Assembly: GCA_002069885.1 (NCBI GenBank)
Contig: MWCD01000023.1
Coordinates: 1 to 55,734 of the forward strand
DNA: 55,734 nt
Source: a bacterium ADurb.Bin236
Lineage (GTDB): Bacteria > UBP15 > UBA6099
Direction of reading: 5' to 3'
Shown in pieces: positions 1-5,956 of the stretch (positions are counted from its first letter, which is position 1; the number at the start of each line of letters is the position of its first letter). Both the position numbers and the translations under genes were made by a program. The notes under the pieces are model-generated. The model did not search any database. It was not told the DNA's origin and was given only the letters and a program-made list of their open reading frames with translations.

Positions 1-3000
1 GATGTCGCGTCCCCGACGGGTTTCTCCGGGAATATGTCGAATATCCGGGCGGCCTTTTCCGCCGCCTCGTCGAACCGCCTCTGGAAGTAGAACAGCACGC
101 TGTCCTCGTGCAGGTCGCAGCATTCGAGCTTGATGTCCGGCAGGCCGTCGGATTTCTTGGCGAGCAGTTCGTATATCTTCACCGGATTCTTATATGCCGA
201 ACTGATTTGTATGTCGAGGAAACGCGTTATTATGAAGTCGTCCGCCTCGGCACGCGTGAACTCGCTTATCGTGGTCTGCGTGGAGTAGAGCTTGCCGGAC
301 GATTCCATGTGCTCGCCGAAGTCCACCTCCGGGCCGATGACGGTGTAGCAGAATCGGTTTGTGGAACCCATGTTGCCGGCTATCATCTCGCCAGTGTTCG
401 CCCCGCAGCGCACCTGAAGGAGATGTTTTCCCTGAGTCTTCCACACCTCCCGCATCTCGGCTATCTTAGCCTGCATATCCAGCGCGTTGTAGCAGACGTT
501 CTTGGCGTGCTCTGGGAAGGGGATGGGAGCGCCGAAGATGCCCACGATCGCGTCGCCGATGTACTTGTCCAGCGTGCCGCCGTACTGCATGAGTATCGCC
601 GTCATCTCCGTCAGATATTCGTTCAGCAACTCGACCAGCTCTTCGGGCGTCAGGGCTTCGGATATGGATGTGAACCCGGCCACGTCGGAGAAGAAAACTG
701 AAGCGCGAGTCCTCTCGCCGCCGAGTTTCAGCTTGTCCGGGTCGGCCAGAAGCGAATCGACGACCTGCGGGTTCACGTACGTCGAGAACATGCCCTTCAT
801 CTTTTTCTTTTCCTGCTCCTCGGTGAGGAAGCGGTAGATGAAGACGCTCAGGAATGTCGCTGTTATGAGCCCGATAGCCGCAAACACCGGAATTTCAATG
901 CGCTTGGTAATGAACAGGTAGTTGGCCGCCGCGAAGTAAGCAGCCGCCACGAACAACATGATTGAGAAGTTGATTACGGCCACCAAGAACGGGTTCGTGT
1001 GCCTGACCGCGCCGCCGGAGAATCCCAGCCCGGCGCCCAGAACCACGAATATCAGCGCCACCCAGATAAACGGCGCTTTGTCGATGAAGAGCCTTTCGAC
1101 TATGGTGTTTATCGCGTTCGCGTGCAGTCCGAGGATTTTATACCTCGGTTCGAGCGGCGTCGGGTTCATGTCGGCAGTGCCTTCCGCCGTCAGCCCGATG
1201 ATTATTATCTTGTCCTTGAGAGCCTTTATCTTTTCGTCCAGAGTCGCCGCTTCCCCGGTCTTGACGATGCTCTCATAAATCTTCGCCTCGTCCTCTTGCA
1301 GAGGGTCCGTCTGCTCTTCCGGCGGAATCTTAGCGTTAGCTCTTCCCCGCTCAAGGATGCTGTGCCGTCCGAGGGTGGAGTAGAAATTCAGGAAGCTGTC
1401 CGTGTCGAACAGCGTGGTGTCCGCCCAGATGCCCGCCCAGTTGACCAGCATCTTGCCGCCGGGAAGCAGCGGGATGGATATGTCCTCGGTCCCGCCTTTC
1501 GCTCCGGGCAGGGTAGCGTTCTTAAGGATGATTTTGTTTTTTTTCAGCAACACATCTTCGGGTTTCACTTTCAGATATTTCAGAGCGATGAGAAAATCCA
1601 CGTGGGGATACAGTTTGTTTTCATAAACATACACGGGCGCGATCATCCGCAGCGTGCCGTCTCTTCTGCTGAACTCCGCCCTCTGCGGGCCTTGACCGGC
1701 GGTGTTCATCCCGATTTCCGGCTGCACGGGATTGACCTTGTTGAGCCGCGGGAACTCGTTTTCAAGTCCGGGGGGAATATCGAAGACGTAGTATTCTTTT
1801 TCAGCCGTCTCGGTTTCTCCCTCCTTCTGCTCCGCTCCGGCCATCCGCAGCACTTTGTCCTTCAGAAGCCTGTCGTTTATCGCGTCGTCGAAAGGCGTCC
1901 CCTCTTTGCCCATCAGGTAGTCCAGATCGCTCGCCGACAGAGATTGGTAAGCTTCGAGCGCGAGGGCTTCCATGGAAGGGGGGGCCGGCGGCGGGTCGGA
2001 CTTCATCGCTTTCTCAAACAGGCTTCTCGCGTAGGCGTCGGTCTTCAGAACCTTCGCGCTCATCGGCGGCGAGTTCTGCTTGTGGAAGTGGTAAAGCTCT
2101 TCTGACTTCCTCTTTCTGTCTTCGGCAATCCTTTTTGCGACAGCGCCCTCGAAAGGCTCGCCTTCGTCTGCGAGAAGGAAGTCGAAGCCGCGCAGGTCAA
2201 GATTCTGGTAGGCGTCGAACACGAGCGCTTCGGCAGGGTTGTCCGGTTTGTTGCGGGTGGGGTAGGATAGCACGCGCTCAAAGACGGCGCGCGTCTTCTT
2301 GTCCAGTTTCAGATCCTTCGGCTCGTGTGGCGTCGGCAGATAGTTCTTCGCGCTGAACGCGAAATAGACATTGCGAGCGGAGGCCGCGGCGCGGCCAACC
2401 GCCTTTTCCCGGTCGGGCGCAAGCTCGTTGAGATGCATGTTGTGCCCGGCGAACCCGGCCACCTGTTCCATCAGGCCGGACACGCTCCCGAGCTCCTCGT
2501 CGAAAACAATCTCCTCGAATCTTGGAGCCAGATCAGCCGCATAAGACGGAGCTTCGGGGTCGTCGAGGAAATCTCTGTATGTCCCTATCTTCTCCATCAT
2601 GCCGAATTTCAGTTCGAGGTTGTAGAACAATATCTGAGAAATCTGCTCAGTGGCTCCTGAGAACCCTTCCCGGACGTCGATGTCCACCTTGCGCCCGAAT
2701 GGGCGCGAGTAGTCGATAGCGAACAGAGTGGCGAGAGCCCCGTGTTTGTCCAGTCCAAGCCCGTTTATCACGTCCACGTAATATATCGGGTCGTCCGGGT
2801 ACGCGCCTTCCCAATCGAGAGTCGAGTCGTCGATCAGCACGTTGTGGATGTCTTTGTTCACGGGCGGCTTCTCAAACCTCTGCCGCACCTTGAACTTGGC
2901 GTCTAGGTCGAGGTTCCCTATCGTGTCTAAAGCTCCGGACGCGAACAGCGCGATGAATAGAGCGGACATTGCAAGCCCTATGAACGGGCCGATTATCTTG

Positions 3001-3038
3001 TTCCTGTCTTCAGCTTTGTGCGGAAGTTTTAGTTTCAT
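1..3038 (-). CDS. CHASE2-domain class III nucleotide cyclase, C1-like half (partial, runs off left edge)
   Basis: Membrane receptor-type cyclase that would make cAMP or cGMP from an NTP; no stop codon occurs before base 1 (1012 codons visible). Start ATG at 3038 is preceded by GGAGAA. An N-terminal membrane segment (about residues 10-32) leads to a long extracytoplasmic CHASE2 sensor, further hydrophobic segments (about 640-720) and the cyclase domain. Both metal-binding aspartates are present: D785 in FSDVAGFT and D829 in KYIGDAI, with the substrate lysine K825. The C-terminal catalytic motif is ruined: the usual GDAVNLASR reads GPEVDFGEH, so the transition-state Asn and Arg are D906 and H910. 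The Thr that usually contacts the base is kept (YTVIG). A homodimer should therefore be inactive. It lies 44 bp downstream of the complementary cyclase at 3083-5956, almost certainly in the same operon. The CHASE2 region holds an internal duplication. Confidence 0.93.
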   Translation of the reverse strand, partial: MKLKLPHKAEDRNKIIGPFIGLAMSALFIALFASGALDTIGNLDLDAKFKVRQRFEKPPVNKDIHNVLIDDSTLDWEGAYPDDPIYYVDVINGLGLDKHGALATLFAIDYSRPFGRKVDIDVREGFSGATEQISQILFYNLELKFGMMEKIGTYRDFLDDPEAPSYAADLAPRFEEIVFDEELGSVSGLMEQVAGFAGHNMHLNELAPDREKAVGRAAASARNVYFAFSAKNYLPTPHEPKDLKLDKKTRAVFERVLSYPTRNKPDNPAEALVFDAYQNLDLRGFDFLLADEGEPFEGAVAKRIAEDRKRKSEELYHFHKQNSPPMSAKVLKTDAYARSLFEKAMKSDPPPAPPSMEALALEAYQSLSASDLDYLMGKEGTPFDDAINDRLLKDKVLRMAGAEQKEGETETAEKEYYVFDIPPGLENEFPRLNKVNPVQPEIGMNTAGQGPQRAEFSRRDGTLRMIAPVYVYENKLYPHVDFLIALKYLKVKPEDVLLKKNKIILKNATLPGAKGGTEDISIPLLPGGKMLVNWAGIWADTTLFDTDSFLNFYSTLGRHSILERGRANAKIPPEEQTDPLQEDEAKIYESIVKTGEAATLDEKIKALKDKIIIIGLTAEGTADMNPTPLEPRYKILGLHANAINTIVERLFIDKAPFIWVALIFVVLGAGLGFSGGAVRHTNPFLVAVINFSIMLFVAAAYFAAANYLFITKRIEIPVFAAIGLITATFLSVFIYRFLTEEQEKKKMKGMFSTYVNPQVVDSLLADPDKLKLGGERTRASVFFSDVAGFTSISEALTPEELVELLNEYLTEMTAILMQYGGTLDKYIGDAIVGIFGAPIPFPEHAKNVCYNALDMQAKIAEMREVWKTQGKHLLQVRCGANTGEMIAGNMGSTNRFCYTVIGPEVDFGEHMESSGKLYSTQTTISEFTRAEADDFIITRFLDIQISSAYKNPVKIYELLAKKSDGLPDIKLECCDLHEDSVLFYFQRRFDEAAEKAARIFDIFPEKPVGDAT
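1870..2305 (-). repeat. Internal duplication of an ~60-residue module in the CHASE2 region
   Basis: Two related protein segments lie in tandem inside the downstream cyclase. The first, about residues 246-306, contains RAVFERVLSYP, ALVFDAYQNL and FDFLLADEGEPFEGAV. The second, about residues 336-390, contains RSLFEKAMKSDP, ALALEAYQSL and LDYLMGKEGTPFDDAI. The sister cyclase upstream has one related copy (around RAMFLKFIG and FEWLLEKSG). This was read by eye from the translation, so the boundaries are approximate. Confidence 0.6.
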
Positions 3039-3082
3039 CGAGGTTCTCCAGTGATTCCGGCATTATGCGGCGCAGGCCGCGG

Positions 3083-5956
3083 CTATTTCTTGGTCATCAC
3101 GTAGACGCCGTCCCACTTGCCGTCGTCGCCGACCGGCGGCGGGGTGGCCTTGTAATCGTCGCAACGGGCCATGTACACCTTGCTTGGGCCGTCTCCGGGC
3201 CGGGCGTCCATCGCCCTCTGGAACCCGGCCTTCGCCTCGTCCCACTTCATTTCCAGATACAGTTCGTACGCCTCCGCGAAACGTTTCGCGCACTCCGCCA
3301 CATCCTCCGGCAGCCCTTCGTCCGTCCTGCCCAGCAACTCGTATACTTTAACAGGCTCCAGTTTCCCGACCACCCGCATCTTGTCCAACATCCTCACTAT
3401 CACGAAATCCTTCGCTTTTTCCAGCGTAAACTCGCTTATCATCAGGCTCGAGCCGTATTGCTTGTTGGCTCCCAGAAGACGGGCCGAGAGGTTGACCGCG
3501 TCGCCCATTATCGTGTAGTTGAACCTCGACTCGGACCCCATGTTCCCGGCTATCATCAGGCCGGAATTCAGCCCGACCATAGTGCGTATCGGCTTCTTTC
3601 CCTCCTGCTCCCATTTCTTGAGAAGCTCGTCGTTGGCCTTCACCATGTCCAGCGCCGCGTAGCAGGCTTTAACCGCGTTGTCCTCGTAGTGAATGGGCGC
3701 GCCGTACACAGCCATAATTATCGCGCCCTCGTACTTGTCCAACATTCCCTGATTGTCAAATATCTTCGCCGTCATCGCCGTAAAATATTCGTTCAGCCTG
3801 TCGACAAGCTCCTCCGGCGACTCGGCTTCCGAAAGCCCCGGCCCGTACGCCATCGCGAACATCGCCGTCAGGTCCATCTTCTCTCCGCCAAGCCTCAGCT
3901 TCTCCGGGTGATGTATCAGCGTCTCCACGACCTCCGGATTCACGTATGTGGAGAACATCGACTTCATCTTTTTCGCTTCCTTGCCCTCTGTCATGTACCT
4001 GTAGACCACGACCAACAGGTAGGAGAGCGAGATCGCCGCGACCACTGACACTAAGGGAGCCCATATCATCGCGGAGCCGAACAGGTATTGGGTTGCCGCG
4101 GCGTACGCGACGATTGTTCCCGCCGCCACCGCGCCGCCGACGGACTGCTTTGACGCGCCGCCGACGAAACCTACCAGCGCGGACAGAACCAGCGCCGCCG
4201 CAAATGTCGCCCAGAACGGAGCCTTCTTTATGAACAGGCTTTTGATTATCGTGTTCACCGCGTTGGCGTGCATTCCGACGAGGGGATCTCTAGGATTGAA
4301 CGGAACCGGGTTCAGGTCGTGCGTGCCAGCCGCCGTCAAACCTATCAGAACCACCTTTTCCCTGAAAAACTCCAACTCCTCGGTCACTCGTTTGGCTTCC
4401 TCGGCGTCGAGGCTTTCCAGAATTGCCGTTTCATGCTGCGCCAGCGGCGCGCCCGCCTCGTTCTTCTTGAGGATGTTGTATTTAACCGCGTCTTCGTAAA
4501 TCTTTCTCACGCTGCGGTGTATGAACGTGTTCGGCTGCAGGAACGCTCCAGCCCAGTTCACCAGCAGCGTCCCTTTTTCATCCAGCGGCATCGTTATAGT
4601 CGTCTTCTTTTCGCTTCCGGGAAACGTTGCGTTCCTTATGACGATTTTTTCCGGATAGAAATCCAAGTCATCGTTCTGAACGCCCAGATAATGCATCGCC
4701 GCGAGGAAGGATATATGGAAATAAAGCGTGTCGTCAAAGTTCAGCGCGGGAGACATCATGCGTATGACGCCGTCCTTCTGCAGTTCGGGCAGAACGTATC
4801 CCACTCCCGCCGAGCCGTCCCCGAACATCGGCATCACCGTCTGGAACTGAACCACGTCTATGTACTCGTCCAAAACGCTCTTCGACGGAACCGGGTTGTC
4901 GGGCCTTATCTTCGCTTTAAACCTTTCATTCACGCCCATTCCGTAATCCGTCTGAGCGCGCACCTTGGCTAGTTCGGCCATGACCAGCTCTTTTTCCTTG
5001 TCGCTGAAAGGTATCGGCTTGCGTCCGCCCGACGGCTTCTCGCCGCTTTTTTCCAGCAGCCACTCGAAATCGCCCGGCCTCAGGTTGCGCAGCGCCTTGT
5101 TCAATTCCACCTCGGCCTGATTGTCCGTCTGCGTCCTGTCGGTCATGCCGATGAACTTCAGGAACATCGCCCTCGCGTCCGGGTCATACAATATGTCGTC
5201 CCGCTTGTATGCGGATTCCTCTTCCTTGTTGGCGAGTTGTCCGAGCAACACGTTGCCCGCCCTTTGTATCGAGTCCGCCAGAATCGCGTCCCTGTCCGGC
5301 GCAAGCGCGTCCAGCGCCGAGTTCTCAAACAGGTACAGCGCGGCGTCGTTGTAAGCCTCGGAGAACCTTGCGAACTGCGGGTCGCCTGTGATCGCGTCAA
5401 GCTCCGCCACCATCTCTTTGATGTCTTTTTCCTCGACCGGCCCCGTCAGCCTGTCCGAAATCTCGTACAGTTTCATCTTCACATTCTGGTCCCACTCTGT
5501 TTCCTCAGGAACGATCGAGGCCAGAGTCTCGAATTTCTTCGAAAACGTGTCGGCCACGCCGGGGTTTAACGCCGGACCTGAACGGTCGAAGAAAAACACG
5601 TCGAACAGAACCATCCTCGCGCCAGCGCCCTCGGCTCCGAGAGCCGTCACTATCTCGCTCCATATCGTCCTGTCGAACGGCCATGTGCGCCACTCGTAGC
5701 TGTCGTCGTCTATGTCCAGCAACACTATGTCCCGCGACACATTTTCTTCCGGCAGCGGGCCTCTCGTGCGGAATCTCTGGTCGTACGCCTTGTGCTCGAA
5801 ACTCTTCAATAGTTCATGGGCCACTCCGACGCCCGGCAGGTCTGCTGCCTTAGGGTGCGGCAGCAGCCCGGCGACCACTCCCACCAACAGCCCCAGCGCG
5901 ACGCCCACGACTTTGTTTCTGGACTCCGGGGTTCTCCATAGCTTCAGTTTCTTCAT
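3083..5956 (-). CDS. CHASE2-domain class III cyclase homologue, C2-like half (metal-site dead)
   Basis: 957-residue paralogue of the downstream cyclase. The start at 5956 has a clear GGAGG six bases upstream. Order: N-terminal membrane segment (about 17-36), large CHASE2 sensor (about 45-570), three hydrophobic segments (about 575-660), linker ending FSTYVNPEVVETL, cyclase domain (about 690-870), and a TPR-like tail. Neither metal ligand survives: the FSDVxGFT motif reads FAMAYGPG (M702 or A701 at the Asp position) and YIGDAI reads YEGAII (A745). In contrast the substrate lysine K741, the base-contacting Thr in YTIMG, and the transition-state N822 and R826 of GDAVNLSAR are intact. Alone it should not catalyse. 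It could supply the Asn/Arg half to the downstream partner. The reading frame is long and undisturbed, which argues against a decaying pseudogene. Confidence 0.93.
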   Translation of the reverse strand: MKKLKLWRTPESRNKVVGVALGLLVGVVAGLLPHPKAADLPGVGVAHELLKSFEHKAYDQRFRTRGPLPEENVSRDIVLLDIDDDSYEWRTWPFDRTIWSEIVTALGAEGAGARMVLFDVFFFDRSGPALNPGVADTFSKKFETLASIVPEETEWDQNVKMKLYEISDRLTGPVEEKDIKEMVAELDAITGDPQFARFSEAYNDAALYLFENSALDALAPDRDAILADSIQRAGNVLLGQLANKEEESAYKRDDILYDPDARAMFLKFIGMTDRTQTDNQAEVELNKALRNLRPGDFEWLLEKSGEKPSGGRKPIPFSDKEKELVMAELAKVRAQTDYGMGVNERFKAKIRPDNPVPSKSVLDEYIDVVQFQTVMPMFGDGSAGVGYVLPELQKDGVIRMMSPALNFDDTLYFHISFLAAMHYLGVQNDDLDFYPEKIVIRNATFPGSEKKTTITMPLDEKGTLLVNWAGAFLQPNTFIHRSVRKIYEDAVKYNILKKNEAGAPLAQHETAILESLDAEEAKRVTEELEFFREKVVLIGLTAAGTHDLNPVPFNPRDPLVGMHANAVNTIIKSLFIKKAPFWATFAAALVLSALVGFVGGASKQSVGGAVAAGTIVAYAAATQYLFGSAMIWAPLVSVVAAISLSYLLVVVYRYMTEGKEAKKMKSMFSTYVNPEVVETLIHHPEKLRLGGEKMDLTAMFAMAYGPGLSEAESPEELVDRLNEYFTAMTAKIFDNQGMLDKYEGAIIMAVYGAPIHYEDNAVKACYAALDMVKANDELLKKWEQEGKKPIRTMVGLNSGLMIAGNMGSESRFNYTIMGDAVNLSARLLGANKQYGSSLMISEFTLEKAKDFVIVRMLDKMRVVGKLEPVKVYELLGRTDEGLPEDVAECAKRFAEAYELYLEMKWDEAKAGFQRAMDARPGDGPSKVYMARCDDYKATPPPVGDDGKWDGVYVMTKK

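Follow-up and report, generated by a model that had tools for sequence, protein, structure and literature searches.

Tandem CHASE2 receptor cyclases with complementary active-site losses: a predicted bacterial heterodimer of the C1/C2 type

Two adjacent genes of a UBP15 bacterium encode CHASE2 receptor cyclases, each of which has lost the part of the class III active site that the other retains. Judged from their sequences, the two proteins are very probably the subunits of a single obligate heterodimeric membrane receptor cyclase; both the dimer and its activity are inferred. The window, that is, the whole stretch of DNA analysed, is the entire contig C23 (55,734 bp) of a 3.87-Mb draft genome, whose closest named relatives are UBP15_UBA6099, USMO_maxbin.112 and USCA_metabat.19 (UBP15 or unclassified bacterial assemblies). 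The pair occupies the left edge of the window as two leftward genes, both with open reading frames (Table 1). Pairs of this kind recur in other bacterial phyla, and trees require four or more separate origins of the split in bacteria.

The gene pair and its catalytic residues

The layout is that of a two-gene operon. The genes are contiguous or overlapping in the relatives G001-G006, and in the pair at L046 they are in frame with a single stop between them. The downstream frame of the window is incomplete because contig C23 starts there; its intact orthologue in G001 is ~1097 aa long (ORF of 1105 codons). No ORF carrying two cyclase domains was present among the scanned loci, and the window pair likewise consists of two ORFs. 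The upstream and downstream proteins are homologous over their full length (36% identity across 661 aa and 25% across the 310 aa at the N-terminus), which fits a tandem duplication of the entire gene.

Table 1. Features of the tandem cyclase locus, in window positions
Feature	Position	Strand	Basis or remark
Upstream cyclase gene, C2-like	3083..5956	-	ORF and translation, 957 aa
Downstream cyclase gene, C1-like	3..3038	-	ORF and translation, 1012 aa; cut by contig end
Intact orthologues of the downstream gene			L043-L045
Intergenic gap, 44 bp	3039..3082	-	Sequence read; GGAG ribosome-binding-like site precedes the second ATG
Architecture, C2-like			N-terminal TM, CHASE2 sensor (aa 48-594), TM bundle, class III cyclase domain (~aa 690-876), C-terminal helical tail
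Me1 and Me2 motifs, C2-like (FAMAYGPG ... LDKYEGA, aa 698-745)	3722..3865	-	Metal site lost, K741 retained
Base, transition-state and phosphate residues, C2-like (T815, D819, N822, R826, K865)	3362..3514	-	Retained
Architecture, C1-like			N-terminal TM, CHASE2 sensor, TM bundle, class III cyclase domain; end missing at contig edge
Metal site, C1-like (D785 ... D829)	552..686	-	Retained
Degenerate half, C1-like (P903, D906, H910, Y949)	192..332	-	Residues from alignment

Both proteins qualify as CHASE2 receptor cyclases, with PF05226 over its cut-off (1.1e-34 in the C2-like protein) and hydrophobic segments on either side of the sensor. PF00211 is also over cut-off in both (C2-like, 1.8e-11; C1-like, 1e-19). 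AlphaFold models of the catalytic domains are confident (pLDDT 90.5 for the C2-like and 92.1 for the C1-like domain) and match solved structures in the PDB with Z up to 26.9 and 26.8, respectively. The matches to CyaB, Cya2 and CyaC (Z 25-27, rmsd ~2 A over 185-195 residues) place both domains in class III. The CHASE2 region of both proteins far exceeds the Pfam model; in the upstream protein it takes up aa 48-594, as against 257 model positions. The extra stretch holds a module of ~50 aa (TRTQTDNQAEVELNKALRNL...DFEWLL), present twice in the downstream protein (3-3038). Elsewhere in the source genome, a 385-aa CHASE2 protein without a visible cyclase domain (L002:1420-2574) adjoins what looks, by eye, like a radical-SAM gene.

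Catalytic residues were assigned by alignment to P. aeruginosa CyaB (3r5g), Synechocystis Cya2 (2w01), 6fht and the mammalian VC1 and VC2 domains, letters being compared with the PDB entries. The upstream, C2-like protein has lost both metal-binding Asp residues (M702 or A701, and A745) and retains K741, T815, D819, N822, R826 and K865. Which residue stands at Me1 is ambiguous because the motif carries a one-residue deletion (FAMAYG-PGLSE), and neither candidate is Asp. The downstream, C1-like protein retains the metal ligands D785 and D829; P903, D906, H910 and Y949 replace the Asp of GDxVN, the Asn, the Arg and the phosphate Lys. The first-pass annotation had argued from M702/A701, K741, A745, N822 and R826 in one protein and D785, D829, D906 and H910 in the other. 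Its ORF positions and every residue number are right, and the alignments to CyaB, Cya2, 6fht, VC1 and VC2 agree that the named residues occupy the metal, Asn and Arg positions. An intact Asp, Asn or Arg at a lost position would have refuted it; none was found in either protein in these alignments, and the complementary losses in these tandem CHASE2 cyclases are real. Its reading of the pair as a C1/C2-type heterodimer is thus supported as far as sequence can carry it, activity and physical pairing remaining inferred.

A position outside that argument divides in the same way. The phosphate-binding Lys is kept in the C2-like protein (K865) and is Tyr in the C1-like protein (Y949). In mammalian C2 the corresponding residue, K1065, binds the substrate phosphates. 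T815 is the base-contacting partner of K741, and both T815 and T899 of the C1-like protein sit in the column of mammalian D1018. Thr or Ser instead of Asp at this position is the mark of class IIIb, to which the pair is therefore assigned, unlike the class IIIa mammalian C1/C2 domains. The Asp of GDxVN was also considered as the base-specificity residue and rejected, since VC2 and the Rv1625c paper point to the Thr of YT.

Set against the known classes, i) a homodimeric class III cyclase has two metal Asp residues, Lys, Asn and Arg in each chain, and neither protein does, each lacking the complementary part; ii) a tmAC-type split site has its metals in one subunit only and its Asn, Arg and phosphate Lys in the other only, as is the case here, although the single polypeptide of the tmAC type is not; and iii) the H-NOX haem sensor domain of soluble guanylyl cyclases is absent from the Pfam scan of the window pair, in which the base position is Lys.

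Conservation and separate origins of split pairs

The same gene pair with the same complementary losses was sought in relatives and found. The CHASE2 pair is intact and complementary in 7/7 sampled UBP15 genomes at 45-98% identity (98% within the genus, 45-51% beyond it), in separate assemblies and with full-length open frames. The C2-like proteins of these pairs have Met or Leu at Me1 and Ala, Ser or His at Me2; in the C1-like proteins the Asn is replaced by Asp or Glu and the Arg by His. The lost residues thus keep varying, and the retained ones are constant. The neighbouring genes change outside the genus, so the pair is held together without general synteny. In genomes of the same genus, the C1 gene is followed after ~50-100 bp by a PF01663 type I phosphodiesterase/nucleotide pyrophosphatase-like gene (L134:522-2090, L135:539-2131, L136:37-1578); none was seen beside the cyclase pair in the more distant UBP15 genomes.

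A census of the seven UBP15 genomes covered every PF00211 domain (n=65). It contains 16 intact tandem pairs, without exception complementary, and four further split-type domains adjoin contig ends. Among the 29 unpaired domains, 24 scored as complete and one more (L100) looks so by eye. The association of incompleteness with tandem pairing (Fisher p 2e-12 on the stricter count) is descriptive only because orthologues are not independent. The concentration of incomplete cyclases in tandem pairs, together with the conservation of the CHASE2 pair, argues against chance or decay. A few cyclases of UBP15 relatives depart from the complete set: in an unpaired one (L110, on G004:C445) the sole change is Arg to His, and three divergent ones (L098, L099, L101) miss parts of the site.

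The source genome carries two more complementary tandem pairs, made of TM-GAF cyclases (contig C2:36.5-40.4 kb and contig C8:85.4-89.2 kb), and the relatives carry other pairs of this type. Two multi-TM proteins of ~300 aa usually lie between the GAF-type cyclases. Four of them were scanned and gave no Pfam match; it is possible that they serve as the membrane sensors of the pair. The resulting four-gene block, C1 - M1 - M2 - C2, is seen at L050:3907-5744 and L057:3244-5000 and also at L049, L051, L052, L054 and L056; the block at L053 apparently has one multi-TM protein. The GAF-type C2-like proteins have Glu for Asp at Me1 and a mostly intact Asp at Me2, and could still bind metal to some extent. 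The Arg is retained in three of the GAF-type C1-like proteins.

A profile search of 386 genomes with follow-up of loci extended the finding beyond UBP15. Tandem CHASE2 pairs of ~1,200-aa proteins occur in all sampled genomes of three small phyla (G035/G182/G317; G074/G215; G138/G275) and pairs of ~680-aa proteins in one large phylum (G023, G170, G420, G409; G+C of the G023 lineage, 0.42-0.45). All of them are complementary. Over all examined loci, complementarity holds for 27 of 28 tandem pairs on the same strand; among the scored unpaired cyclases, 55 of 59 have all four residues. Because a C2-like profile was used to find the loci outside UBP15, the proportion of complementary pairs among them cannot be taken as unbiased; the UBP15 census is free of that bias. 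A homologous pair with both members complete, which would have spoken against the first-pass annotation, was looked for and not seen. The one exception (L059:2293-6838) differs in architecture: a CHASE2 - degenerate cyclase - Ser/Thr kinase protein is followed by an FHA-GAF cyclase in which the base-specifying Lys is Glu.

Taken over the collected sequences, the two half-sites behave differently. In the C2-like proteins (n=21) the Lys, the Thr, the Asp of GDxVN, the Asn, the Arg and the phosphate Lys are invariant, and the metal positions vary (M, L, S, A, W or E at the first; A, S, H, E or D at the second). In the C1-like proteins (n=20) both metal Asp residues are invariant, the Asn and the phosphate Lys are lost in 20/20 and the Arg in 17/20. 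The phosphate Lys, in the column of mammalian C2 K1065, is therefore present in 21/21 C2-like and 0/20 C1-like sequences.

Trees of the catalytic domains were built with the catalytic columns masked. Strongly supported branches require that the C1-like state arose independently four or more times, and the C2-like state likewise. AU tests reject a single clade of all C2-like (p 8e-47) and of all C1-like domains (p 8e-40), and also of the CHASE2 subsets alone (C2-like, p 1.9e-7; C1-like, p 4e-11). In two lineages the C1 halves join the C2 halves in a single, strongly supported clade (100/98 and 100/99); the grouping is weaker in UBP15 (87/71 for the CHASE2 pairs and 81/17 for the GAF type). Obligate C1/C2 heterodimers made of tandem receptors are thus probably a recurrent and unrecognised bacterial architecture, with at least four origins by duplication and reciprocal loss, and the split would not be only eukaryotic.

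Predicted mechanism and alternative explanations

In each subunit the CHASE2 sensor would be extracytoplasmic and the class III catalytic domain cytoplasmic. A head-to-tail dimer would have one complete interface site out of two. At this site the two metals would be bound by D785 and D829 of the downstream, C1-like protein. The upstream, C2-like protein would contribute K741 and T815, which contact the base, the transition-state residues N822 and R826, and K865, which binds the phosphates. The second interface site, without metal, Asn, Arg or phosphate residues, is probably structural or regulatory, like the mammalian forskolin site. Neither homodimer would be expected to cyclise. In known C1-C2 heterodimers, likewise, C1 binds the metals and C2 provides the residues for the base and the transition state, hence one potential active site per heterodimer (PMC4174876).

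The Lys/Thr pair predicts conversion of ATP to cAMP, and the paired CHASE2 sensors may integrate a signal or transmit it asymmetrically. Dimer formation, activity, product, the CHASE2 input and the signalling role of the paired sensors are all inferred. The source genome has 13 matches to cNMP-binding domains, and it is possible that these proteins receive the signal of the pair.

Within the heterodimer reading the product may differ. A heterodimer that makes cGMP, or uses another nucleotide, stays a minor possibility: the substrate prediction from Lys/Thr is itself only an inference, and the guanylyl cyclase Cya2 ranks level with the adenylyl cyclase CyaB among the structures closest in fold to the C1-like subunit. 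However, K741 and T815 form the ATP-type pair of class IIIb, as established for CyaC-type enzymes, and this pair is kept in 21/21 C2-like proteins. The heterodimer might also form but have little or no catalytic activity, and serve instead as a paired sensor or as a nucleotide-binding regulator of other cyclases. Each protein alone is without essential residues and pseudo-cyclase domains do exist, as in the first gene of L059, but such a pair would give no reason for complementary half-sites to be kept across deep divergence and four origins, and we consider this unlikely. It is more doubtful still that one or both proteins are homodimers with a non-canonical site, for example with other metal ligands, the tandem being a mere duplicate. 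The Glu and Asp of the GAF-type C2-like proteins might bind metal, but the window protein has M/A and A at these positions and its relatives L, S and H, with no conserved replacement, and in the C1-like partner three different residues of the opposite half-site are gone. Decay of both genes to pseudogenes, or sequencing errors, could account for missing metal and Asn/Arg residues but is refuted by full-length frames and invariant remaining catalytic residues in 7 separately assembled genomes. A single obligate heterodimeric cyclase accordingly remains the preferred reading of the two genes.

Relation to known cyclases and significance

The closest parallel is the C1a/C2a arrangement of mammalian ADCY1-9, in which, as in the window pair, the metals come from one domain, the base, Asn/Arg and phosphate Lys residues come from the other, and one site is complete and one degenerate. 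The likeness extends to single replacements: the His that stands for Arg in the window C1-like protein (GEHME, H910) is also present in VC1 (ANHME), and both metal positions are Ser in mammalian C2, where some bacterial C2-like proteins have Ser at one. ADCY1-9 are, however, eukaryotic single polypeptides with two 6-TM bundles and belong to class IIIa, with Asp at the base position, whereas the window pair consists of two genes with CHASE2 sensors, has the class IIIb Thr and represents separate bacterial origins. As the Lys/Thr pair marks class IIIb, the simplest reading is parallel invention rather than kinship with the mammalian split.

Two-gene heterodimers of homologous subunits are also known. 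The alpha and beta subunits of soluble guanylyl cyclase are described in this way (PMC3591389), which resembles what is proposed for the window pair; that animal enzyme differs in its soluble haem sensor, its substrate, GTP, and the lack of CHASE2. The chytrid rhodopsin cyclases RGC/NeoR are two membrane receptor-cyclase genes functional only as a heterodimer, but RGC1 and RGC2 retain all catalytic residues (PMC8815786), so their obligate pairing is not due to split active sites. The catalytic fold of the window pair is common to the bacterial homodimers Rv1625c/Cya, CyaC and CyaB and to S. meliloti CyaD1/CyaD2/CyaK, the last being CHASE2 receptor cyclases known to produce cAMP (PMC13001267). 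The review literature assigns pseudoheterodimers to eukaryotes and describes the two active centres of bacterial enzymes such as Rv1625c as built equally by both monomers (PMC9552081). A full-text literature search found no description of a bacterial split-site heterodimer; most subscription journals were not covered and this is weak evidence. The predicted chemistry is already known from eukaryotic C1/C2, and it is the genetic and taxonomic setting that appears to be new.

In these pairs bacteria would have an equivalent of the mammalian C1/C2 split with each half still encoded by its own gene. Since there are several origins, the shared changes (in C1, replacement of Arg by His or Glu and absence of the phosphate Lys; in C2, replacement of Asp by Ser or His) show the tendencies of the architecture. 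It becomes testable why symmetric two-site homodimers evolve into asymmetric one-site cyclases, and what a degenerate site and two non-identical sensors add. The small two-gene systems could also serve as reporters of obligate heterodimer formation.
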